64,000 bases of DNA from positions 434,001 to 498,000 of the forward strand of contig NZ_WOTN01000003.1 of NCBI RefSeq assembly GCF_010993745.1, given 5' to 3'. Position 1 is the first letter of the stretch. Every line of letters starts with the position of its first letter. The DNA comes from Fodinicola acaciae (GTDB lineage Bacteria > Actinomycetota > Actinomycetes > Mycobacteriales > HKI-0501). Under the pieces are notes generated by a model, which had not been told where the DNA came from, did not search any database, and saw only the letters and a program-made list of their open reading frames with translations. Positions 3,933 to 53,124 of this stretch are shown here, one piece after another. Made by a program: the position numbers and the translations under genes.

Positions 3933-5207
3933 GTGCGGACTCTGGTGCTCTCCTGGGAATACCCGCCGGCGGTGGTCGGTGGGTTGGGTCGGCACGTGCA
4001 CGCACTGTCCGAGGCGATGGCGGCGGCCGGTCACGAGGTGACGGTGGTGAGCCGGCACGCGCCGGACGCGCCGGCCGACGAGGTGGTCAACGGCGTGCGG
4101 ATCGTACGCGTGCCGGACGACCCGCCGGTGTTCGCGTTCACCGAGGAGACGCTGCTCGCCTGGACGATGGCGTTCAACCACGCCGTGACGCGCGCAGCGC
4201 TGCGGGTGTGTGAGGACGCGCGGCCGCAGGTGGTGCACGCGCACGACTGGCTGGTCGCGCACGCGGCGGCGACGATCAAGCATCACCATGAGATTCCGCT
4301 GGTCGCCACCATGCACGCCACCGAGGCCGGCCGCCATCAGGGGTGGCTGCCGGGGCCGCTGAACCGATCGATCCACTCGGTGGAGTGGTGGCTCACGTAC
4401 GAGGCGCGGCGGGTGATCACCTGCAGCGACTACATGCGCTGGCAGGTGACCCAGCTGTTCGACCTGCCACCGTCCAAATTGGACACCGTGCCCAACGGCG
4501 TGCATCCGCAGGACTGGAAGGTGCCGGCGGCCGCCGTACGCGCGGTCCGCGAGCAGCATGCGTCCACAGTGGACAGTCCGCTGCTGCTGTTCACCGGCCG
4601 GCTGGTGTACGAGAAGGGGTTGCAGGACATCCTGGCCGCGCTTCCCCGGCTGCGCCGCCGCCATCCCGGCATCCGGCTGCTGGTCGCCGGCGACGGACCG
4701 TATCTCGACGAGTTGCGAGCGCAGGCGAAGAAACTCCGGCTCGGCCGTGCGGTGCGGTGGCTCGGTTTCGTGCCGGGCCGCGAGTTGGCGGCGTTGGCCG
4801 CGGCCGCCGACTGCGCGATCGTGCCGAGCATCTACGAGCCGTTTGGCATGGTCGCGTTGGAAGCGGCCTGCGCCGGCGCGACGCTGGTGTTGTCCGACAC
4901 CGGCGGTTTGGCTGAGCTGGCCAAAAACGGCGTGTCCGCGCTGCAGGTGCAGCCAGGGAGTCCGAGCGACATCGCCGACGCGGTCAGCCGGCTGCTGCAG
5001 GACGAGGTGCTGTCACGGCGGCTGTCGCGGCAGGCGCGATCGGTGGCGACAAAGGAATACGCGTGGTCGCGGATCGCCGGTCAGGTCATCGACACGTACG
5101 AGCGCGCCATCCGTGAGGAACGCGAGCTGGCGGCCACCCTGCGGCGCACCGGCCGCGGTCCGGCACCGTTGCGGATCGTCGTGCCGGAAGGCAATCTTTT
5201 CGCCTGA
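3933..5207 (+). CDS. GT4 glycosyltransferase, Rv3032-like alpha-glucan synthase
   Basis: The protein has 424 residues and starts at GTG 3933. The N-terminal Rossmann domain opens LVLSWEYPPAVVGGLGRHVHAL, the ADP/UDP-glucose synthase pattern with a Gly-rich loop. HAHDWLVAH (about residue 100) and TMHATEAGRH follow. The C-terminal GT-B domain has GRLVYEKGLQDIL and the donor-site motif SIYEPFGMVALEAACAG with its EX7E-type glutamates. From memory this is closest to mycobacterial Rv3032, the alpha-1,4-glucosyltransferase that elongates glycogen and methylglucose lipopolysaccharide. A hexapeptide acyltransferase resembling the Rv3032-linked gene Rv3034c lies 570 bp on. It converges with a MarR gene with only 2 bp between stop codons. 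Confidence 0.85.
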   Translation: MRTLVLSWEYPPAVVGGLGRHVHALSEAMAAAGHEVTVVSRHAPDAPADEVVNGVRIVRVPDDPPVFAFTEETLLAWTMAFNHAVTRAALRVCEDARPQVVHAHDWLVAHAAATIKHHHEIPLVATMHATEAGRHQGWLPGPLNRSIHSVEWWLTYEARRVITCSDYMRWQVTQLFDLPPSKLDTVPNGVHPQDWKVPAAAVRAVREQHASTVDSPLLLFTGRLVYEKGLQDILAALPRLRRRHPGIRLLVAGDGPYLDELRAQAKKLRLGRAVRWLGFVPGRELAALAAAADCAIVPSIYEPFGMVALEAACAGATLVLSDTGGLAELAKNGVSALQVQPGSPSDIADAVSRLLQDEVLSRRLSRQARSVATKEYAWSRIAGQVIDTYERAIREERELAATLRRTGRGPAPLRIVVPEGNLFA

Positions 5208-6976: not shown

Positions 6977-7438
6977 GTGACCGATCCGGTGCCGCTGGCT
7001 CGCCTGTTCGCGATGGGTTTCGACCACATGATCGACAACCTGCACACGCGGCTGGCCGAGCGCGGCTGGCGGGACGTGCGGCCGGCGTTCGGTTTCGTCC
7101 TCCTGGCCGTACGGTCCGGCCCGCGCACGGCGACCGAGATCGCCGCTCTCCTGGGCACCACCAAACAGGCCGCGTCCAAGCTGGTCATGGCGATGGACGA
7201 GGCCGGTTTCGTCAGCCACGCCGCGCATCCCGGCGACAGCCGCGCCAAGCTGGTCGGCCTGACCGAGCGCGGCGAGCGGCTGCTGGCCGCGGTCGACGGC
7301 ATCTACCGCGACCTTGAGGACGAGTGGGCCGCGGTCATCGGCTCCGACCGGCTCGAGCGGCTGCGCACCGACCTGACGACGGCCCTGCGCGCCAGCCACG
7401 ACGGCCAACTGCCGCCCGTACGACCCGCCGCCGAGTAG
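6977..7438 (+). CDS. MarR-family transcriptional regulator
   Basis: The protein has 153 residues from GTG 6977, 9 bp after the cupin gene. The helix-turn-helix TATEIAALLGTTKQAASKLVMAMDEAGFV and the wing HAAHPGDSRAKLVGLTERGERLL match MarR. The recognition helix QAASKLV differs strongly from that of the MarR at 5210-5740, so they should see different operators. Two palindromes lie upstream of the operon, suggesting autorepression released by a ligand that the cupin may handle. The gene faces a convergent PPIase gene across repeat region A. Confidence 0.85.
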   Translation: MTDPVPLARLFAMGFDHMIDNLHTRLAERGWRDVRPAFGFVLLAVRSGPRTATEIAALLGTTKQAASKLVMAMDEAGFVSHAAHPGDSRAKLVGLTERGERLLAAVDGIYRDLEDEWAAVIGSDRLERLRTDLTTALRASHDGQLPPVRPAAE

Positions 7439-7439
7439 T

Positions 7440-7970
7440 CCGCATGGCCACCATGCTTGCGTTGGGGCGCTTATGCCAGGAACTTCGTGGCCGGGGTGTC
7501 GCGGTCCGTCAGACTTGGGTTTCAACTCACGGACTGCTTGATGTGTAGTGCTGCGGTTAGGGGTGCCGGGTTGTCGGGGTGGGTTCTGTTCGTCGCGGTT
7601 GGGGATGGCGGGTTTTCTGTTGGTCGCGGTTGAGGGCTGGTGGGGTTTTCTGATTGTTGCGTTTGGGGGTGGTTGCGCCTTCGCGGCGGGCGACCTCAAG
7701 GGGAGGGCGCGTTGTCTGTTTGTGGTTGGGTTGGGTGCCGCGGTGCGGTTGGGTTTGTGGGGTTTGTGGGGTGGCCCGGTTTGGCCAGGGAGCCCGTCGT
7801 GTCGGCCGGTGCGGCTGTCGGCGGGCTTGCGGTGGCGAAATGTTCAGGTTTGATGTCTTGTTAGGCAAGTAAGGAGGCCTTACTTGCATCATCCAAACCG
7901 GCAAGTCGGGCATTTGGCGCTACAACAGCGAGGGCGATCGACGCCAGACGCACGCATGGTGGCCATGCGG
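7440..7970. repeat. Convergent-junction composite repeat, copy A
   Basis: This 536-bp gap between two convergent genes holds no gene. From left to right: GCATGGCCACCATGC (part of a 17-bp inverted repeat, 7440-7456); a weak hairpin (7504-7534); three G/T-rich tandem units starting ttctg at 7584, 7615 and 7648; a block with gcggcgggcgacctcaagg (about 7684-7700); a stretch near 7790-7870 ending in gatgtcttgttaggcaagt; the palindrome GCAAGTAAGG-agg-CCTTACTTGC (7865-7887); and the other half of the inverted repeat (7954-7970). Copy C carries the same blocks in the opposite orientation. The G/T-rich strand is the coding strand of the upstream marR gene. Confidence 0.8.
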
Positions 7971-7974
7971 GCAT

Positions 7975-8724
7975 CTAGCTCACAGTGACGGACGCGATCT
8001 GCACCTTGGTGTTCGGCGTGTCCTGCTGGGGTCCGCTGGTGCCGCCGGCGGCGATCTTCAACAGCACGTCCAGGCCGCGGGTGATCTGACCGAGCACCGG
8101 ATAGTTCGGACCGTCGAAGCTGGAATCCTTGTATACGAGGAAAAACTGGCTGCCGTTGGTGTCGGGCGAGGCGGCGTTGGCGATCGCGACGGTGCCGGCC
8201 GGATACGGTGGCGTCTGGCCGGTCGGCAGGTTTTCGCTCGCGTACTGGTAACCCGGTCCCCCGGTGCCGGTGCCACTCGGGTCACCGCACTGCAGCATGT
8301 ACGCGCCGGTGACCAGCAACCGATGGCACGGCGTGTTGTCATAGAACTTCTTCCCCGCCAGGAAAGTGAAACTGTGCGCCGCGCACGGAGCTTTGGCCGT
8401 GTCCATGGTGAACTCGACGACGCCCTGGTTGGTGGTGATCGTCACCTTCTGCTGGCCCGACCGCGGAATGTCCGAGGTGGACGGTGTGCCGACCGGCCGG
8501 GTCGCCGGCGACCCGCTCGGCTGGTACGCGCAACCGCCGCCGGTCGCCGGCGCGGACGCGGCGGCCGACGTGGCGACGGTCGACGGCTTGCCGGCCGCCT
8601 GGAATCGGCTGCTCACATAGAAACCGGCGCCGACGACCGCCGCGCACAGCACGAGCACCAGAACGCCTCCACCGACCGACAGACCGATGATCAGGCCGCG
8701 ATTGGAGCGGCGCGGCGCGCTCAC
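7975..8724 (-). CDS. Membrane-anchored cyclophilin-type peptidyl-prolyl isomerase
   Basis: The protein has 249 residues from a GTG at 8722-8724, which overlaps the stop of the methyltransferase gene by 4 bp. Residues 9-33 (LIIGLSVGGGVLVLVLCAAVVGAGFYV) form one membrane anchor, followed by a Ser/Ala/Thr-rich linker and a cyclophilin domain from about residue 95 (KVTITTNQGVVEFTMDTAKAPCAAHSFTFLA). The core has YDNTPCHRLL and NGSQFFLVYKDSS, the usual CHR/SQFF positions. It is probably an extracytoplasmic foldase. It ends the operon at repeat region A. Confidence 0.9.
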   Translation of the reverse strand: MSAPRRSNRGLIIGLSVGGGVLVLVLCAAVVGAGFYVSSRFQAAGKPSTVATSAAASAPATGGGCAYQPSGSPATRPVGTPSTSDIPRSGQQKVTITTNQGVVEFTMDTAKAPCAAHSFTFLAGKKFYDNTPCHRLLVTGAYMLQCGDPSGTGTGGPGYQYASENLPTGQTPPYPAGTVAIANAASPDTNGSQFFLVYKDSSFDGPNYPVLGQITRGLDVLLKIAAGGTSGPQQDTPNTKVQIASVTVS

Positions 8725-9668
8725 CGCGGCTTCACACCGGTGATCAGCAGGTTGTAGAACAGCTCCTTCGGGATCACCTGGCTGAAGAAGTGCTTGTCGA
8801 CCGCGGACAGGGCCAGCCAGCCCTTGTACGCGAACATGGCCCAGTTCCAGCCGAGCTTGTCCGACGGCACCGCGCATTCGAACGTCCGCACCGGCCAGCC
8901 GAACCAGGCCGCGGTGAACTCCTCTGTTTTCACCGAAACGTCGCGCGCGCCGGCGCGTACGGCCCGGACCGCCAGCTTGTGCGGATCGAACGTGTGCAGG
9001 TCGACGACGGCCTCCAGCGCGGCCGCCTGGCTCGACTCGTCGAGCTCCTGCTGTGGCCGCCGCCAGTCCGACAGCGCCGGCAGTTTGGTCAGGTTGGTGG
9101 TGGCCCACCAGGTCAGCTGCGACAGTTTGCGCGCCACCACGTCGCCGTATTTTGTCGGCTCACCGGCGAAAACGAACCGGCCACCGGGCTTGAGCACCCG
9201 CAAAACCTCGGAAAAGGCCTGGTCCACGTCCGGGATGTGGTGCAGCACAGCATGTCCGACGACCAGGTCGACCGACGAGTCCTCGACCGGGATCGTCTCC
9301 GCGTCGGCGACCTTGCCTTCGACGTCAAGGCCAAGCTCTTTGGCGTTGCGGGTGGCGACCTCGACCATGCCGGGCGAGATGTCGGTGACGATCCCCGACG
9401 TCGCGACCCCGGCACGCATCAGGTTGAGCAGGAAAAAGCCGGTGCCGCTGCCGATCTCCAGCGCCTTCTCGTACGGCCAGCCCTCCTCGCCGGCGATCCC
9501 GGTGAACCGCTCCCTGGCGTACGTGGTGCAGCGGTCGTCAAAGGAGATCGACCATTTCTCGTCGTACGTGCCGGCTTCCCAGTCGTGGTAGAGAATGTTG
9601 GCCTGCTTGGGATCGCTGCGCGCAGCGTCGACCTCTTCTTTGGTTGGAGTCATTTGTGCACCAGCCAT
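8721..9668 (-). CDS. Class I SAM-dependent methyltransferase
   Basis: The protein has 315 residues. The start ATG at 9666-9668 is preceded by an AGGGGGAG ribosome site. SAM-binding motif I is ALEIGSGTGFFLLNL (about residues 69-83). Motif II is IVTDISPGMVEVATRN. Motif IV is DLVVGHAVLHHIPD, and a post-motif KPGGRFVFAGEP follows. The C-terminal 120 residues are a family-specific helical extension. It is a Methyltransf_11-type enzyme whose substrate (lipid, quinone or metabolite) is not indicated. It is coupled to the PPIase gene and follows an enoyl-CoA hydratase gene by 12 bp, so all belong to one transcription unit. Confidence 0.85.
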   Translation of the reverse strand: MAGAQMTPTKEEVDAARSDPKQANILYHDWEAGTYDEKWSISFDDRCTTYARERFTGIAGEEGWPYEKALEIGSGTGFFLLNLMRAGVATSGIVTDISPGMVEVATRNAKELGLDVEGKVADAETIPVEDSSVDLVVGHAVLHHIPDVDQAFSEVLRVLKPGGRFVFAGEPTKYGDVVARKLSQLTWWATTNLTKLPALSDWRRPQQELDESSQAAALEAVVDLHTFDPHKLAVRAVRAGARDVSVKTEEFTAAWFGWPVRTFECAVPSDKLGWNWAMFAYKGWLALSAVDKHFFSQVIPKELFYNLLITGVKPR

Positions 9669-19388: not shown

Positions 19389-19910
19389 GTCCTTGGTTGC
19401 GAGGGTTTCTGGTGCGGTCGCGGCGGAGTGGTTGCGGGCGGCTTGGGGTGGTGATGGAGTGGCGGCGGTCCTTGACTGGTGCGGGTGAAAGTAGTCAGGC
19501 CTTCTGGTTGTTGCGGTTTTGGGGATGATTGGGATTTCTGGTTGTTGCGTTGGGCGGGTGGTCGGGTTTTCTGGTTGTTGCGTTGGGTGGGTGGTTGGTT
19601 TTTCGCCTGCGCGGCGGGCGCTCCTGCGCGGAGGGCGACCTCAAGGGAGGGGGCGCGTGGACGCCAATCGTGTGCATTGGGGGTGCGGGTGGCGGTTGTG
19701 GGCGGGGCTGCGTCTTCCTGGCTTGCTAACAACAGCATTGCTCGCCTCAGCAGTCACGCCAGTCACAGCATCCGGTCGAGATGCGGGTGTGAAAGCCTTG
19801 TTTCTTGCGTCTAGCGCTAGTAACTCGGCATCCACGCCATCAGCGGACCCCTCAAGGCGGACATTTAGCGCTGCATGTCGTCCTCGGTCTCACATAATCG
19901 ACCTTTGCGC
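19389..19910. repeat. Convergent-junction composite repeat, copy B
   Basis: This 522-bp gap lies between the convergent SARP and FAD/Fe-S genes. The left 300 bp are G/T-rich on the plus strand. A block gcggcgggcgctcctgcgcg then gagggcgacctcaaggg lies near 19610-19650. A second block, about 19731-19900 (aacaacagcattg... to ...cacataatcg), matches 52209-52380 of copy D in the same orientation at roughly three quarters identity by eye. Copy B lacks the palindromic insert that D has between the words ggcttgct and acaacagcatt. No convincing gene is present. Confidence 0.75.
19502..19601 (+). repeat. About 33-bp G/T-rich tandem repeats (3 copies)
   Basis: Units starting ttctggttgttgcg occur at 19502, 19536 and 19569, with spacings of 34 and 33 bp. 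They are followed by runs such as gggcgggtggtcggg. The G-rich strand is the coding strand of the SARP gene just upstream. Confidence 0.75.
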
Positions 19911-28686: not shown

Positions 28687-28733
28687 CGCATGGCCACCAT
28701 GCGTGCGCTGGACGCACGCATGGTGGCCATGCG
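28687..28733. terminator. Perfect 21-bp hairpin, recurrent GCATGGCCACCATGC type
   Basis: Arms 28687-28707 and 28713-28733 are perfectly complementary around a 5-base loop (ctgga). The core word GCATGGCCACCATGC and its complement recur as the outer inverted repeat of copy A (7440-7456 and 7954-7970). It lies 5 bp after livF and probably terminates the liv operon. Confidence 0.8.
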
Positions 28734-28801
28734 ACCTATCGATAGGGCCGACTACGCGCTTGTAGCGATAAATGTCTGGCTTGCCGGTTTAGGCGATGCT
28801 A

Positions 28802-28846
28802 GCAAGGCCTCCTTGCGTGCATCCAGCACACGCAAGGAGGCCTTAC
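28802..28846. repeat. Palindrome of the AAGGAGGCCTT type
   Basis: Arms 28802-28819 and 28829-28846 pair over 18 bp with one mismatch. Each arm holds the word CAAGGAGGCCTT. Copy A has a shorter palindrome of the same type at 7865-7887. A 12-bp perfect palindrome CCTATCGATAGG lies just before it at 28735-28746. Confidence 0.65.
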
Positions 28847-29270
28847 TTGCATCGAGGATGTTGCGGATGTGACTCCTGTGGCTGAGGACTCGGTTGAGGC
28901 GTCCCGCAGCTGCAATACTTGCCTAACAAGACATCAAATCTGGACGTTTCGCCACCGCAAGCCCCGCCGACAGCCGAACCGGCGGACACGGCGGCTGCTC
29001 AGCCACACCGATGTCCAGTTTGTTCGTTCGCCCCCGTCGGGGAGAACGAACAAGCCGGACCACCCCACCTACAAAACCGCACCGCGGCACCCAACCCAGC
29101 CACAAACAGACCCCGCGCCCTCCCCTTGAGGTCGCCCGCCGCGAAGGCGCCGCCACCCACCCAAAACGCCAGCACCAACCAAGCAATCAGTGCAAGCGCC
29201 TAACGACACATGCCTCCTCCGACAGAGCGCCCCTAGCGCCCAGCTATCGGACACCAGGTCACCCCCGCCG
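28847..29270. repeat. Convergent-junction composite repeat, copy C
   Basis: Together with the two hairpins at 28687-28846 this fills the 592-bp gap between convergent livF and meaA. On the minus strand, reading from the meaA stop, it runs: one G/T-rich unit, the block gcggcgggcgacctcaagg (29125-29145 region), a stretch like 7700-7870 of copy A (ttgggtgccgcggtgcgg... tcttgttaggcaagta), the palindromes, then livF. A compact hairpin GTTCGTTCTCCCCGACGGGG (near 29025-29060) resembles the arms of the palindrome in copy D. No gene is supported. Confidence 0.75.
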
Positions 29271-41465: not shown

Positions 41466-41527
41466 GGTATGCGGCTCTCCATCACGTCGTTGTGTCCGGC
41501 CCAGGAAATGTCTGAACGCGCACAGAG

Positions 41528-42496
41528 TTACCGGTTCAGCCAGGTTTCAATCTCGACATAAAGGCCCTTCCTGGTCGCTTCCGGCGCGAACGACGCTTCG
41601 ACACCGGCGCACGCGATGTCCGCGAGCACGTCGTCCTGATAACCGAACGTGTCTTTTACCCGCGAATATTCGTCGGTCAGCGTGACGTCGCCGATGACGT
41701 TCGGGATGTCGGTGTTGAGCGTCACGGCGAGATCGGCGTCGAGGAGCCGCGGTAACGGATGTTCGGCGTACGACGGCACCAGGCTGAGGCCGACGTTGGA
41801 CGACGGACAGACCTCGAGCGCGATGCCCCGCTCGCGTACGTCCTCGACGAGCTCGTCGTCCTCCAGGACGCGAAAGCCGTGGCCGAGCCGCTCGGCGCGG
41901 CCGACGACGAGCGCCTCGCGGATGCTGTCGGCACCGCCTGCCTCGCCGGCGTGGTGCACGACATGCAGACCGGTGTCGGCCGCCGCCGCGAAAATCTCCT
42001 TGAACGGAGCCAACGAATACGCCTCGTCACCGGCCATGCCGATCGCGACCACGCCCCGCTCGGCGTGACGCTTCGCGAGTTCCAGCGTCCGCCACGCGCG
42101 CTCCACTGACCGCCGGCGCGAGTGGTCGAGGATCACCTGGCATTCGACGCCGCACGCCTCCTGGCCCTCGTCCAGGCCGTCCAGCACCGCCGCCAGCGGC
42201 ATGTCGAGGTCGCCCAGCCGCTCGCCATGCGAGGCGGCCGTGAACGTCACCTCCGCATAACGCACACCGTCCGCCGCCTGGTCCGCGCAGAACTCCACCG
42301 CGATACGCCGAAAGTCGGCCGGCGTCCGCAGTGACTCGCGGATCCGCGTGTTGAAGTCGGCGAAGTCCCGGAAATCCCTGAACCGCTGCCGCGGATCCGG
42401 TGTGCGTACGCCGAAGTCCGCGAGCGTCGCCGGCCGGACCGTGCTCTCCAGATGGATGTGCAGATGAGCCTTCGGCAGCGTTCGCAGGTCGCGCAT
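41528..42496 (-). CDS. Adenosine-deaminase-family amidohydrolase
   Basis: The protein has 322 residues. It has the ADA barrel with metal ligands HLHIHLEST (His11/His13), HH181-182AGE185, His206 in ERLGHG and Asp263 in LNTDIP. The canonical motif is LNTDDP; here the second Asp is Ile264. The first motif HLHIHLE also differs from the usual HxDG. These differences suggest a substrate other than adenosine (for example another purine or nucleoside), but this is inference. AAGGA lies directly before the ATG, an unusually close ribosome site. Its promoter lies immediately after the rrn terminator. Active-site Glu185 is kept. Confidence 0.75.
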
Positions 42497-42531
42497 TCCT
42501 TCAGCGTACTTTCTTTTCCGGACAACAAAAA

Positions 42532-42570
42532 ACCTGAAAGCCGCTCGCGGGTCGCGAGCGGCTTTCAGGT
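42532..42570 (-). terminator. rrn operon intrinsic terminator
   Basis: An 18-bp perfect stem (42532-42549 and 42553-42570) with a 3-base loop is followed on the minus strand by a T-run (positions 42531 down to 42526). It lies 6 bp past the 5S gene. Strong intrinsic terminator. Confidence 0.92.
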
Positions 42571-42576
42571 AAGAAG

Positions 42577-42693
42577 TCCGGCGGCGTCCTACTCTCCCAC
42601 ACCGTCACCAGTGCAGTACCATCGGCGCTGAGAGGCTTAGCTTCCGGGTTCGGAATGGGACCGGGCGTTTCCCTCTCGCTATGACCACCGAAA
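42577..42693 (-). rRNA. rrf: 5S rRNA
   Basis: On the minus strand the sequence starts ttcggtggtcatagcgagag and ends with gaccgcgaacgc-type closing bases near gtaggacgccgccgga. The 5' and 3' ends pair (the helix 1 of 5S). Length about 117 nt, ends approximate. It is 83 bp downstream of the 23S gene. Confidence 0.93.
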
Positions 42694-42776
42694 CACTATG
42701 GAGTTCTCGCCGTTCTGGATGGGCGTGCCTCCAGAACCGCACAGTGGACGTAGTAGCAGCAGAAATCTGTGTATGT

Positions 42777-47750
<4,974 letters not shown>

Positions 47751-48050
47751 GCATATAAGAATCCCCCACCCAACAAAGAGCAGGATCATCGACACAACGA
47801 AGCGCCAAGCAAAACTTGGCAGAACCCGGCAATCAAACAAGCTGACACTTGTTCTCATACCAAAGGAATCCGACCCGACCTGCGACACACCCCAGAAAGA
47901 GGCTTGCCAACATGCCAGGCACGGGATAATTTGGCACTGACAATCCAACACGCTGTTGAGTTCTCAAAGAACAACCGCTTCCGGTTCTGGACTCTCGTCC
48001 GTCTCCGGGGCAACTTCTCCAGCTTAGTCCTGGGCTTTCCCCTTGTCAAG
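47751..48050 (-). promoter_or_regulatory. rrn leader and promoter
   Basis: On the minus strand a TTGACA (-35, plus-strand 48044-48049) and TAAGCT (-10, plus-strand 48021-48026) are spaced 17 bp. A leader of about 270 nt follows with the stretch tgttctttgagaactcaaca (48003-47950 region), the typical actinobacterial boxA-like antitermination sequence. No gene is here. Confidence 0.75.
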
Positions 48051-48273
48051 TGCGATCTTTTCGATCGTGGCTTGAACTGGTTGTTTCCCGCCGGACTGGC
48101 TGTTCCACTACCTTAGCGGACCGATTTTCGCGGTCTCACCGGGGGGTGGGAGCTTCTGGCCGGCCAACCCGCTGCCTTGATCTTGACGACCTGGCACCTT
48201 GGTTTCTGTCCGGTATCCCGTCAGCGACAACGAAGTTACGACGTCCGACCCACCCGCGTCAAATCCATTAACG

Positions 48274-48304
48274 GTGACCGTGCCGTGGTGAGCGGCACGG
48301 TCAC
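48274..48304 (-). terminator. Hairpin terminator of tyrS
   Basis: 12-bp arms GTGACCGTGCCG (48274-48285) and CGGCACGGTCAC (48293-48304) with a 7-base loop. Begins 10 bp after the tyrS stop codon on the minus strand. The 48051-48313 gap otherwise contains no gene I can support. Confidence 0.75.
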
Positions 48305-48313
48305 GTTTCGGCT

Positions 48314-49579
48314 TCAGCGCTTGACGCGTACGCCGGCCACGTTGCGCCGGCCGCGGCGCAACACCAACCAGCTTCCGAACAGCAAAGACTCCGCCGGCGG
48401 CGGCGCATCCGCGTCGGTCGCGCGTACGTTGTTGACGTACGCACCGCCCTCTGCGACGGTCCGCCGGGCATCGCCAAGTCCCTTGCACAGCCCCGAATCC
48501 CGCAGCAGCTCGGCGAGCGTGGGCACCGGATCGGGCACCTCGACCGAGCCGGCCTCGGCCAGCGCGGACGCCAACGTCTTCTCGTCCAGCTCGGCCAGCT
48601 CGCCCCGCCCGAACAGCGCCTGGCTCGCCGCGATCACCTGCCGGCACGCGGTCTCGCCGTGCAACAACGTGGTCAGATCCTCGGCGAGCGCACGCTGCGC
48701 CTCTCGCGCACCTGGCCGGCTGGCGACCGCCTCCTCAAGCGCCTCGATCTCCTCGCGGGACCGGAACGACATCGTCTTGAGGTAGTCGATGACCTTCACA
48801 TCGTCGGCGTTGACGAACACCTGATAGAAGGCGTACGGCGAGGTCAGCTCCGGATCGAGCCAGACCGTACCCGTCTCGGTCTTGCCGAACTTGGTGCCGT
48901 CGGCCTTCAGGATCAGCGGCGTGGCGAGCGCGTGGACGCTCACCCCCTCCACCCGGTGGATCAGGTCGACGCCGGCGGTCAGGTTGCCCCACTGGTCCGA
49001 GCCCCCGGTCTGCAACACGCAGCCATGTCGCCGGTACAGCTCCAGGAAGTCCATCCCCTGCAGGATCTGGTAGCTGAACTCGGTGTAGTTGATGCCGGCG
49101 TCGGACTGCAGCCGCGCGGCGACCGCCTCCTTGGCGAGCATCTTGTTCACCCGGAAGTGCTTGCCGATGTCGCGGAGGAAGTCGATCGCCGACATTGGCG
49201 CCGTCCAGTCCAGGTTGTTCACCACGGTCGCCGCATTGTCACCGGTGAAGTCGAGGAACGGCTCGATCTGCGCCTTGATCTTCTCCACCCAGCTGGCCAC
49301 CACCTCGGGCGGGTTCAGCGTCCGCTCGCTCGTCGACTTCGGGTCGCCGATCAGTCCGGTCGCGCCGCCCACCAGGGCGAGCGGCCGGTGGCCGGCCAGC
49401 TGCAGCCGGCGGGCGGTGAGCACCTGCATCAGGTTGCCGAAGTGCAGGCTCGGCGCGGTCGGGTCAAAGCCCACGTAGTAGGTGATCGGGCCGGTGTCCA
49501 TCGCGGCGCGCAGCGCGTCCAGGTCGGTGGACTGGGCGATGAGTCCGCGCCAGGCCAGGTCGTCGAGAATGTGGGTCAC
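48314..49579 (-). CDS. tyrS: Tyrosyl-tRNA synthetase
   Basis: The protein has 421 residues from a GTG at 49577-49579. Class I signatures are HFGN (residues 46-49; HIGH position) and KFGKT (230-234; KMSKS position). Tyr-binding residues are in YVGFDPTAPS and GSDQWGN. An S4-type RNA-binding domain lies in the C-terminal 70 residues (LAELLRDSGLCKGLGDARRTVAEGGAYVNNVR). Essential for charging tRNA-Tyr. TetR gene precedes it by 22 bp. Ends at a strong hairpin. Confidence 0.95.
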   Translation of the reverse strand: MTHILDDLAWRGLIAQSTDLDALRAAMDTGPITYYVGFDPTAPSLHFGNLMQVLTARRLQLAGHRPLALVGGATGLIGDPKSTSERTLNPPEVVASWVEKIKAQIEPFLDFTGDNAATVVNNLDWTAPMSAIDFLRDIGKHFRVNKMLAKEAVAARLQSDAGINYTEFSYQILQGMDFLELYRRHGCVLQTGGSDQWGNLTAGVDLIHRVEGVSVHALATPLILKADGTKFGKTETGTVWLDPELTSPYAFYQVFVNADDVKVIDYLKTMSFRSREEIEALEEAVASRPGAREAQRALAEDLTTLLHGETACRQVIAASQALFGRGELAELDEKTLASALAEAGSVEVPDPVPTLAELLRDSGLCKGLGDARRTVAEGGAYVNNVRATDADAPPPAESLLFGSWLVLRRGRRNVAGVRVKR

Positions 49580-49601
49580 CCGGCAATTATCGCGTACCGG
49601 C

Positions 49602-50177
49602 TCAACGACTTTCTTCGCCGACCAGCCGCAACGCCGCGACCAGGTCGCCGGCCGACGGCGCGTGGTCGGGATCGATCAGCCACTGGATCATCACGCCGCT
49701 CATCAGCGCCTGGTAGAACGAGCCGAGCGCGCGCCCGGTCTTCTCGTCGGTGCGTACGTCCACGTCGTGCAGGGTCTTCGCCCACCAGCCGCGGGTTTCC
49801 TCGATGCCGTCGGCGAACGCCGCGCGCAGGTCCGGCATCCGGTCCATCTGGCCGAAGATCTCCAGCGTCGCCGCGTACACCTGCCGGTCCGCCTGGAACG
49901 AGTCGATGATCGACCGCCAGATCACTTCGAACCGCTGCAACGGCGGACCTTCGGGGTCGCCGGCCGCGGCCAACGCGGCGGCCATCTTCTCCCCCATCTC
50001 GCCGATCGCGTCGTAAAGCGCCAGGTTGAGCAGCGCCTCGGTGGACTTGTAGTGATAGCCGATCGCGGCGAGGCTCGTCCCCGCCGCGGCGGCGATGTCG
50101 CGTGCGGTCGTACGCGCGTAGCCCTTCTCGTAGAGACAACGCTTCGCGCCGGCCAGCAGATCCTCGCGATTTCCCAT
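49602..50177 (-). CDS. TetR-family transcriptional regulator
   Basis: The protein has 191 residues from ATG 50175-50177. The open frame further upstream crosses the divergent promoter. The helix-turn-helix is GYARTTARDIAAAAGTSLAAIGYHYKSTEALLNLALYD (residues about 19-56). The remainder is the ligand-binding helical domain (FGQMDRMPDLRAAFADGIEETRGWW). The divergent monooxygenase gene is separated by 105 bp, so it is the likely target. The regulator is on the same strand as tyrS, whose co-transcription would be a side effect. Confidence 0.87.
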   Translation of the reverse strand: MGNREDLLAGAKRCLYEKGYARTTARDIAAAAGTSLAAIGYHYKSTEALLNLALYDAIGEMGEKMAAALAAAGDPEGPPLQRFEVIWRSIIDSFQADRQVYAATLEIFGQMDRMPDLRAAFADGIEETRGWWAKTLHDVDVRTDEKTGRALGSFYQALMSGVMIQWLIDPDHAPSAGDLVAALRLVGEESR

Positions 50178-50226
50178 GCCAGTGATGCTAGCCGATGTTC
50201 GTACGTTCGTCTTGCACACTTGTACT

Positions 50227-50238
50227 AGACGTATGTCT
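50227..50238. promoter_or_regulatory. Candidate TetR operator
   Basis: AGACgtatGTCT, a 4-bp half-site inverted repeat with 4-base spacer (50227-50238), lies between the divergent TetR and monooxygenase genes. The neighbouring repeats ttcgtacgttcg and gtatgtctgag are related. Its identity as an operator is inferred from position only. Confidence 0.35.
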
Positions 50239-50282
50239 GAGACTGTCGTATGGTCATCGCCAACGACGACGAGGAGTTGGAC

Positions 50283-51479
50283 ATGAGCCGCAGTGTTTTG
50301 ATTTCCGGCGCGAGCATCGCCGGGCCGGCGCTGGCGTACTGGCTGAACCGCCACGGTTTTCGGGTGACCGTCGTGGAGCGCGCCGCCGAGCTGCGATCCG
50401 GCGGCTACAAGATCGACCTGCGCGGCGTCACCGTCGAGGTCGCCGAGCGGATGGGCATCATGGACCGGGTCCGCGAGCTGAGCACCGACATGCGCGACGA
50501 GACCTTCGTGGACCGCGACGACCGGCCGTTGCTCACCATGCCGGCCGACTTCTTCGCCGGTCGCCACGGCCACGACGACGAGATCATGCGCGGGGACCTG
50601 AGCCAGATCCTGTATGACCTCACCAAGGACGACGTCGACTACATCTTCGACGACTCGATCACCGAGCTGGTCGACGACGCCGACGGCGTGAAGGTCAGCT
50701 TCGAGAAGTCACCAGCGCGCCGCTTCGACCTGGTGGTCGGCGCCGACGGCCTGCACTCCAACGTGCGGAAGTTGGCCTTCGGTCCGGAGCCGGACTTCGT
50801 CCACGAGATGGGCTACTACGCCGCGATCTGCGGCACGCCGAACCACCTTGGCCTGGACCGCTCCGAGCGGCTGTATGTCGAGCCCGGTCGTACGACCAAC
50901 GTCTACAGCACCAGCCGGATGGCCGGCGCCAAGGCGCTTTTCCTGTTCTCCTCGGAGAAACTCACATATGACCACCGGGATGTCGCCACTCAGAAGAAAA
51001 TCGTGGCCGACACCTTCGCCGGCGTAGGTTGGCGCGTACCGCAGCTGCTCGAGTCGATGTGGACAGCGCCGGACTTCTACTTCGACAGCCTCAGCCAGGT
51101 GCGGATGGACTCCTGGTCCCGCGGCCGCGTCGTCCTGCTCGGCGACGCCGGCTACTGTCCCTCACTCGCCTCCGGCCAAGGCACCGGCCTCGCCCTGGTC
51201 GGCGCGTACGTCCTCGCCGGCGAACTCGCCGCCGCCGGCGGCGATCACGTCGCCGGCTTTGCTGGATACGAGCGCGAGATGCGGCCGTATGTGGAGAAGA
51301 ACCAGAAGCTTGGGTCGCAGGCCGTCAAGCAGATGGTGGCGCGGTCGAACGCGGCCATCCGGATGCAGCTGCTGATGCTCAGGGTGATGCCGAAGCTGCC
51401 GGGGAGTGCGGCGATCATGCGGAAAGTTATGCAGCCGATCCATGACGCGGCGAACGGGATCACGTTGAAGGATTACTGA
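50283..51479 (+). CDS. FAD-dependent monooxygenase (TetX/PHBH-like)
   Basis: The protein has 398 residues from ATG 50283 (GAGGAG upstream). The FAD dinucleotide-binding motif is ISGASIAGPALAYWLNRHGFRVTVVERA (GxSxAG variant). LVVGADGLHSNVRK is the DG motif, and GRVVLLGDAGYCPSLASGQGTGLALVGAYVLAGEL is the GD motif. This is a group A flavoprotein hydroxylase, as in TetX or RebC-type enzymes. Likely oxidises a hydrophobic small molecule. Likely controlled by the divergent TetR gene. The stop codon is followed immediately by repeat region D. Confidence 0.88.
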   Translation: MSRSVLISGASIAGPALAYWLNRHGFRVTVVERAAELRSGGYKIDLRGVTVEVAERMGIMDRVRELSTDMRDETFVDRDDRPLLTMPADFFAGRHGHDDEIMRGDLSQILYDLTKDDVDYIFDDSITELVDDADGVKVSFEKSPARRFDLVVGADGLHSNVRKLAFGPEPDFVHEMGYYAAICGTPNHLGLDRSERLYVEPGRTTNVYSTSRMAGAKALFLFSSEKLTYDHRDVATQKKIVADTFAGVGWRVPQLLESMWTAPDFYFDSLSQVRMDSWSRGRVVLLGDAGYCPSLASGQGTGLALVGAYVLAGELAAAGGDHVAGFAGYEREMRPYVEKNQKLGSQAVKQMVARSNAAIRMQLLMLRVMPKLPGSAAIMRKVMQPIHDAANGITLKDY

Positions 51480-51611
51480 GGAGGGGGAGGGTGGGGCGCG
51501 GCGCCTGGTGGTGCGGTGGAGGGGCTGCGTTCCGCCTTGGTGGTGGGAGGGGCCGCGTTCCACGTTGGTGGTGGTGATGATGGGAGGGCTGCGTTCCGCC
51601 TTGGTGGTGGT

Positions 51612-51780
51612 GGGTTTCTGGTTGGTGCGTTGGGGAGGTGGTGGGTTTCATGTTTGGTGCGTTGGGGAGGTGGTTGCGTCTCTTGTGTGTGCGTTGGGTG
51701 GGTGGTTGCGTCTTCATGTTTGTTGCGTCAGGGGGGTGGTTGGGTCTTCATGTTTGTTGTGTTGGTGGGTGGTGGGTTTT
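51612..51780 (+). repeat. G/T-rich tandem repeats in copy D
   Basis: Units of about 33-36 bp with the core tttggtgcgttggggaggtgg or tgtttgttgcgtcaggggggtgg recur four to five times from 51616 to 51780. A distinct three-unit repeat with ctgcgttccgccttggtggtgg lies just before (51535-51610). Degenerate, so unit length varies. Confidence 0.65.
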
Positions 51781-51899
51781 TCGCCTGCGCGGCGGGCGCT
51801 CCTGCGCGGAGGGCGACCTCAAGGGAGGGGGCGCGGGAACGCCAATCGGTGTGCATTGAGGGTGCGGGCGGCGGTTTGCGGGCGGGACCGGGTTCTCCA

Positions 51900-52047
51900 G
51901 GCTTGCTCGTTCTCCCCGTCGGCGCCCTGAAGGGAACCACATTTTCGGAGGGGCCGCCGAGCCTGGGAGGGTGGTTGCGTTTGTTTGGCGGCGGCCCCTC
52001 CGACAATGTGGTTGGCTGCGCCCGCCGACGGGGAGAACGAGCAAGCC
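51900..52047. repeat. Nested palindrome of 148 bp
   Basis: The outer arms 51900-51924 and 52023-52047 are perfectly complementary over 25 bp. The inner arms 51935-51959 and 51989-52013 pair over 25 bp with one mismatch, leaving a 29-base loop. The words gcttgctcgttctccccg and complement define the outer arms. The same word recurs in copy C (29025-29060) and, mutated, at the right window edge. Confidence 0.85.
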
Positions 52048-52108
52048 AGGTCACGTGTGGGAAGCAACCCGTCGGCATGGACGCCATCACAGCGTCCGGA
52101 GTGGTGCT

Positions 52109-52240
52109 GGTGTGACTGGCGTGGCTGATAATGCGGGCGAGGCGGGCCGACTGCGTAATACTTGTCTAACAAGACATCAAAACCGACATTTGTCGCAACC
52201 CAACAGGCACAACAGCATTATCAGCCTCAGTAGTCACACC
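52109..52240. repeat. Imperfect inverted pair with 80-bp loop
   Basis: 52109-52134 and 52215-52240 are complementary at 22 of 26 positions (with gcattatcagcc and its complement at their inner ends). The intervening sequence contains acttgtctaacaagac, itself an inverted repeat, which is also in copies A and C. Confidence 0.7.
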
Positions 52241-52680
52241 CGTCACAGCCTCCGGTGATCGCGGCGGCGTGAAAGCCTTGTTTCTTGCGTCCAACGCAAG
52301 TAACTCGACATTCATGCCATCGGCGAGCCTCGCAATCCAGACATTTAGCGCTCCATACGCCTTCGCATCCCACATAGTGGACCCCCACGCCACCCACCGG
52401 GAGGCCACCGCACCTCCGGCGCCCCAGCCACACTCCCGGTCCACCCACCCAACCGCACACGCGGCACCCAACCGGACCAACGACGGGACCCCGCGCCCCT
52501 CCCCTTGAGGTCGCCCTCCGCGCAGGAGCGCCCGCCGCGAAGGCGCCACCACCCCCAAAACGCAACAAAAATGAAGAGCCCGATCCCTCCCAACGCACCA
52601 ATCATGAGAGCCAGCCACTCCCAATGGCACCACCCATGAAAACCCAACCCACAAAACCAAAAAAGCCGACCCAAACTGGG

Positions 52681-53124
52681 TCAGCTGGCGGCTCGGTCGG
52701 AGATGAAGGGGGCTCCGGGGGCGGCGGCTTCTAGCCACGACAGGAAGCCGGTGAGGGCCGCGTCGGCCATCGCTACTTCGACGCGGTGGCCGCGGTGGGT
52801 GCAGGTGAGGACGATCGCGCCGGGCGGCAGGGCGAGGGTCTCTGGGCCGGTGGGAGAACGGCGGCGTACGACCTCCATGGAGGGCCGCGCATAGGTACGC
52901 TTCGGGCCGGGCCACAGGCTGAAGATCCGGAACCATTGAAGCTGGTCGCCGGTGAACCGCGCGACGCCGAAGGCCCAGCCCCAGCCGCGGCCGCCGGTGT
53001 GCAGACGTACGCTCATCTCAATGGTGCCGCCGGACCGGCGCAGCAGGTGGCGGCGCAGGTAGATCGCGGCCAGCAGCAGCACCGCGGCCGCGATGACGAT
53101 CGCGACGATCTCGATGAGCTGCAT
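52681..53124 (-). CDS. DUF2550 membrane protein
   Basis: The protein has 147 residues. One N-terminal helix (LIEIVAIVIAAAVLLLAAIYLRRHLL) then a soluble domain with SVRLHTGGRGWGWAFGVARFTGDQLQWFRIFSLWPGPKRTYAR. This is the actinobacterial DUF2550 family, which usually sits beside atpC, as here (20 bp downstream). Function unknown. Its 3' end meets repeat region D. Confidence 0.88.
   Translation of the reverse strand: MQLIEIVAIVIAAAVLLLAAIYLRRHLLRRSGGTIEMSVRLHTGGRGWGWAFGVARFTGDQLQWFRIFSLWPGPKRTYARPSMEVVRRRSPTGPETLALPPGAIVLTCTHRGHRVEVAMADAALTGFLSWLEAAAPGAPFISDRAAS

Follow-up and report, generated by a model that had tools for sequence, protein, structure and literature searches.

Copy A, a split hairpin at positions 7440 to 7970 of the window (the whole 64,000-nt stretch of DNA analyzed here), probably belongs to a hairpin family private to this genome whose members are entered at the dyad by a small element, X, and was itself split in this way before its insert was remodeled. 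X would be a small, noncoding transposable element that often inserts at the hairpin dyad, where a 5-bp staggered cut spanning the 5-nt loop would leave one half-hairpin on each side of the element. Copy A would be a family hairpin split in the same manner as its X-filled siblings. Its insert would since have been altered, so that an X-end-like remnant and then a repeat body, Y, are present and the right end of X is gone. The unequal loop halves of copy A are as would be expected if split copies had recombined.

The original prediction described 17-bp inverted repeats 497 bp apart in copy A and a compact form of the same hairpin in copy C, and both descriptions held when the sequence was read again. 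In copy A, CCGCATGGCCACCATGC forms the left arm at 7440 to 7456 and its complement forms the right arm at 7954 to 7970 (features of copy A are given on the plus strand). Copy C (28687 to 28733, no strand assigned) is an intact compact hairpin with a perfect 21-bp stem and a 5-base loop; its fold has a predicted energy of −45.3 kcal/mol as RNA (z −8.1) and −31.9 as DNA. Upstream of copy A, a plus-strand gene at 6977 to 7438, taken as MarR-like in the original prediction, ends 3 nt from the 15-nt left arm. On the other side, a convergent minus-strand gene at 7975 to 9108 (mechanical open reading frame limits; peptidyl-prolyl isomerase [PPIase]-like in the same prediction) has its stop 6 nt from the 15-nt right arm. 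The two halves stand 3 and 6 nt from convergent stops, a spacing like that of a compact hairpin.

By analogy with intact hairpins, from which the internal boundaries are deduced, the left arm is followed by the inner stem TTGCG and a putative loop remnant, TTGGG (7457 to 7466), and the right arm is preceded by a putative loop remnant, CCAGA, and the inner stem CGCAC (7944 to 7953). Both halves are complete up to the loop, with stems intact through TTGCG and CGCAC, so the position of the split is the loop. The insert is composite. After the left loop remnant come 47 bp that an X insertion does not account for and then, at 7514 to 7526, the 13-mer CTTGGGTTTCAAC, which a motif search placed one mismatch from the end of X and which is the sole X-end-like match in the window (0.01 expected). 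Next is the G/T-rich body Y, at approximately 7536 to 7940 according to genome matches and alignment, which ends near GGCATTTGGCGCTACA and whose most widely shared piece is 7654 to 7763. We found no target-site duplication around copy A, where the loop halves TTGGG and CCAGA are unequal, and no right end of X in the insert, which is thus not bounded by X ends.

The arms of copy A are members of a large family and not a chance match. The 15-mer GCATGGCCACCATGC has four matches in the window, all exact, where 0.28 would be expected at up to two mismatches. Across the window's own genome (G000; 8,860,993 bases [8.86 Mb] in four contigs), there are 258 exact matches (132 plus 126), and a reversed control had 0. 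The exact compact hairpin occurs at 82 places and accounts for 164 of the 258 arms. Exact compact hairpins account for 70 of the first 100 arm places, the ones listed; the remaining arms are paired with a mismatched arm, in split pairs, in tandem arms, or solitary. The consensus is approximately GGYC-GCATGGCCACCATGC-KTGCR-N5-YGCAM-GCATGGTGGCCATGC-GRCC, with variants. In 36 exact hairpins examined in fetched DNA, the four bases beyond the arms are conserved too, mostly as GGTC or GGCC, and conservation falls off past them, so that the hairpin unit is about 53 bp long. The loop is variable in these 36 hairpins, with 17 different 5-mers, of which TCCAA and TCCAG are the most frequent. The stem hardly extends into the flanks (mean of 2.2 nt, versus 2.0 nt with swapped flanks).

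Judged by the collections searched, this genome is the only one to carry the family. The full exact palindrome had no match in a scan of 84,980 species, from which records of the own genome may be left out. In a search of 41 genomes of relatives, including its own, the 15-mer was present in four, with one or two copies in each of the three others, and it had no copy in G001, the only genus mate searched (74% complete). Other repeats were also noted. Half-palindrome chimeras at 52266 to 52318 and 19786 to 19838 of the window combine an arm of a GGCGTGAAAGCCTTGTTTCT hairpin with an arm of a GAGTTACT hairpin, joined at the common core TGCGTCCAACGCA or a variant of it, and beyond the downstream end of the window, at about 13 and 22 kb, are like-armed GGCGTGAAAGCCTTGTTTCT and GAGTTACT hairpins. 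Elsewhere, two insertion-sequence copies with a 466-aa open frame (L156, 2707 to 2793; L161, 869 to 955) have a common 87-bp flank (98%), which suggests that a repeat surrounds or adjoins this insertion sequence as well.

The layout of the hairpins is that of a shared, bidirectional 3'-end signal. The set examined comprised all 100 arm places listed plus 244 kb of contig C3, window included; neighboring genes came from a simple gene caller trained on these 244 kb, which errs at some neighbors (an overlap of −43 at L025, starts 4 to 6 nt away at L026 and L032). Both neighbors were called for 38 of 39 compact hairpins. Of these, 20 lie between convergent genes, 16 between tandem genes, and 2 between divergent genes, compared with 15 convergent and 29 divergent among 102 background spacers of at least 45 bp (convergent enrichment, Fisher P = 1.3e-5). 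The distance from stop to arm is 2 to 21 nt in 48 of 57 cases, and none of the 39 compact hairpins falls inside a called gene. Six other split copies are looser in this respect than copy A (8 of 12 sides at 9 to 87 nt, 4 yielding no distance with the test used). The hairpin is not followed by a U-tract (a run of at least four T occurs in 1 of 72 flanks) and a terminator scan found nothing at copy C, so we only infer termination: most likely, the hairpins act as bidirectional terminators or 3'-end stabilizers.

Relatives were compared at gene ends where this could be done. With blastn (E value of 1e-8) on 17 to 20 kb fetched from the genus mate G001 and the family mate G002, no other junction gene matched beside the PPIase gene and none matched beside meaA, so these stretches, of which the sequence at three of the four junctions was inspected, offered no orthologous empty site for copy A or copy C. 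Instead, five junctions were compared, from a 15-kb stretch of G000 that is largely syntenic with contig C34 of G001; they do not amount to a survey. At the first, the compact hairpin of G000 stands after a gene ending in KKYKRCHG, presumably of SecA type; the G001 counterpart is located on contig C83 rather than C34, and after it stands a different hairpin that carries six T, read in the gene direction; by eye no such hairpin follows the G002 gene. At the second, G000 has two family arms in tandem and G001 has a different palindrome, with 16-bp arms, which overlaps the stop codon. The third has a worn family hairpin in G000 versus 1.3 kb of other sequence in G001. Other repeats stand at the remaining two, including, in G000, a related hairpin with GCATGGACCCCTTGCG arms. 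Thus, the family is absent from G001 at the junctions compared, and other hairpins replace it at two gene ends.

Two further observations concern G001. An rRNA operon (5S, large subunit, and small subunit) occupies 42576 to 47749 of the window on the minus strand, inside a stretch without a match (about 41474 to 52685) between two syntenic blocks of G001. Intergenic repeats of 65 to 90 bp, each with a CCCACCCCCC...GGGTGGGGG hairpin plus GTACGACAGTTTCGCGCC, lie at 4441 to 4515, 7345 to 7435, and 13668 to 13749 of L061 and match many G001 places at about 78 to 93% identity; unlike the copy A hairpin family, they are shared within the genus.

In fetched DNA, the arms of six pairs are separated by 267 to 760 bp, measured between their starts: copy A, L015, L016, L018, L023, and L041. 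The inserts of L016, L023, and L041 have CTTGAGTTTYAACCT or a close variant at both ends, which defines X; in L015 such an end is on the left side only, and in L018 it is on neither side. The split family hairpin at L018 (1469 to 1750) has a 237-bp insert without X ends that holds GAGCGCTAAATGCCCGCC and a worn second hairpin. Searching the genome with the X end only gave 23 matches, which merged to 20 copies of X; X copies or remnants at L015, L144, and L150 were added by other routes. Thirteen of the 20 are at hairpin halves (L009, L016, L023, L041, L132, L135, and L137 to L143). Among these 13 are hairpins whose arms have other sequences (L132, the left half of L140, and L143) and cases in which one half is missing or worn (L135, L138, and L139). 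The other seven (L128 to L131, L133, L134, and L136) lie outside arm-type hairpins, that of L134 just outside a different complete hairpin.

X has terminal inverted repeats: each two-ended copy is bounded on either side by CTTGAGTTTYAACCT or a variant of it. An exact 5-bp target-site duplication surrounds 8 of the 12 two-ended copies; in L137, where the right end is a variant, the match depends on manual placement of the boundary. When the 11 two-ended copies other than L150 were considered, none of 100,000 permutations of the right sides reached the 8 matches observed, and swapped left and right flanks matched in 6 of 110 pairs. The two-ended copies without a duplication are L009, L140 (4 of 5 letters equal), L143, and L150, the twelfth (TTGGG/CTGAA). 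Seven of the eight duplications are the 5-base loop of a hairpin (TCCAG, TCCAA three times, ACCAA, CCGGG, and GTGGA), and this identity of duplicated 5-mer and loop indicates that X enters at the dyad. Rejoining the flanks yields hairpins with complete, exact 15-nt arms at L016 and L023 and imperfect hairpins at L132, L137, and L142. Part of the right half is lost at L041, and at L141, where the flanks only were examined, the right inner stem is worn. The eighth duplication is that of L131, where X is flanked by TAAAG on both sides at a site without a hairpin; X is therefore an independent unit that uses the hairpin as a target.

The eight duplicated copies of X are 268 to 725 bp long. The one copy examined for coding capacity, L023, contains no open reading frame of 100 aa wholly inside it (the longest is 78 aa). 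Rfam returned no match in L016, L023, L142, or L144. Transposases of PF01609 were considered as the motor of X and gained no support: the two groups compared bear ends of other kinds, and none of the 15 PF01609 loci of the genome has X-like ends within it at up to four mismatches. In 248 other genomes of the order, a weak search, with two candidates scored per genome, found no match in 247 and one weak 53-bp match, in G238; of the X copies in the own genome, the same search recovered only two.

Body Y has a wider distribution. It has at least 56 matches in the genome, including itself, with the best 40 of 195 candidates scored. An alignment of the copy A body with those of copy C, L099, and L040 shows that the body and a similar right-hand part recur at three places: beside copy C, in L099/L144, and in L040. 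The body beside copy C (28760 to 29165, minus strand) lies outside the hairpin, in the orientation opposite to that in copy A, and contains a further hairpin at 28794 to 28854. In L099/L144, body Y is preceded by a worn left half of a hairpin and by an X end; in L040, it is followed by a right hairpin half only. Several matches to body Y elsewhere in the genome form opposite-strand pairs about 0.6 to 0.9 kb apart. A large repeat with G/T-rich inverted ends is also present at 51600 to 52680 of the window (arms at 51757 to 51837 and 52490 to 52570).

For copy A, the original prediction had offered two readings, insertion into the loop of an existing hairpin or a hairpin that is itself the terminal inverted repeat of a mobile unit. 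The first gains strong support from the sibling loci, where seven X copies duplicate the 5-nt loop. At copy A itself, the intact halves near the stops suggest the same history, against which stand the missing duplication and the composite insert; we infer that copy A passed through an X insertion, and insertion into one single hairpin is likely there. The second reading would make the compact hairpin the same unit with its middle deleted. Inserts of differing size between the halves at several loci would fit such a unit; however, X has its own ends, is flanked by a duplication at the nonhairpin site L131, has 7 of its 20 copies at sites other than arm-type hairpins, and also occurs in hairpins with other arms, and the X copies detected through their ends number 20, fewer than the 82 exact compact hairpins. 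A hairpin half as the end of X is ruled out by L131 and by the hairpins with other arms, and for X the terminal-repeat reading is largely refuted and, overall, highly improbable. The main rival for copy A is that two neighboring hairpins, one per gene, each lost the inner half by deletion or recombination around Y. Because Y stands outside an intact hairpin at copy C and beside a right half only at L040, copy A could join the halves of two hairpins, and each of its loop remnants, TTGGG and CCAGA, is the loop of one intact hairpin. Both losses, however, would need to end at the loop, and the most frequent arrangement in the genome is one hairpin a few nucleotides from each of two convergent stops; an origin from two hairpins is rather unlikely.

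A further question is whether a Y1 (RAYT) transposase spread the hairpins themselves, which would make them conventional REP elements. They are palindromic, extragenic elements in high copy number, outside called genes and at gene 3' ends, as this would predict. Against it, a search with PF01797, which we take to cover RAYTs, gave a signal for 5 of 14 control genomes and no match in this one. Most REPs bear a GTAG or CGTC tag at one end, according to a published account (PMC3733652); the 12 tetramers that most often flank the hairpins, which make up 69 of 72 flanks, include neither. We therefore regard conventional REP elements as an improbable explanation and treat the hairpin as a private, REP-like, terminator-like element. 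More speculatively, it is possible that a species-private hairpin of about 53 bp spread genome-wide to gene ends without a RAYT and became a common bidirectional 3'-end signal, with the genus mate differing at orthologous ends, and that its loop would serve as a safe landing site for an element that cuts exactly around it.

These sites are of interest in several ways. Many filled and empty sites in one genome show a transposable element choosing the center of a palindrome and thereby make sequence-led versus cruciform-led target choice testable. They also raise the questions of how a short hairpin multiplies to about 100 gene ends where no Y1/RAYT transposase is found and whether mobile hairpins can replace terminators.

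Compared with known systems, the hairpins resemble intrinsic (Rho-independent) terminators in being strong, G+C-rich, placed right after stops, and common to convergent genes, and they differ in the absence of a U-tract. Like REPs and REPINs, they are numerous short extragenic palindromes at gene ends; they differ in the lack of a Y1 transposase match and of a GTAG or CGTC tag among the common flanks, and in the perfect 21-bp stem of copy C. Bacterial MITEs are short, noncoding, multicopy elements with terminal inverted repeats and target-site duplications. X shares all of these features but has no autonomous partner with its ends among the PF01609 genes and markedly prefers hairpin loops. In titles and the opening lines of abstracts, a scope outside which most subscription journals lie, there was no report of a MITE entering terminator or REP loops.

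The closest parallels are insertion sequences that enter REP palindromes at the symmetry axis, ISRm22 and ISPsy8, as described by Tobes and Pareja (2006, PMC1525189). There, ISPsy8 generates 3-bp and ISRm22 6-bp repeats at insertion, and rejoining the flanks of ISPsy8 restores the REP. In three of nine copies of ISRm22, the repeats are unequal, which that study attributes to recombination among copies (PMC1525189); by analogy, the unequal loop halves of copy A may have arisen in the same way. In the same text, all type 1 elements are in REPs, unlike X, with 7 of 20 copies outside arm-type hairpins, and ISPpu9/10 and ISPa11 enter REPs off axis or without repeats (PMC1525189). On that account, X resembles ISRm22 and ISPsy8 in that it enters a repeated extragenic palindrome at its symmetry axis. 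It differs in being short and MITE-like, with no 100-aa open reading frame inside the copy examined, in a 5-bp duplication that is the whole loop, in its host, which the best MeaA matches mark as actinobacterial, and in hairpin targets for which no Y1 transposase was detected. Insertion at the symmetry axis of REPs is thus already known, and the case of X is a variation on that theme.
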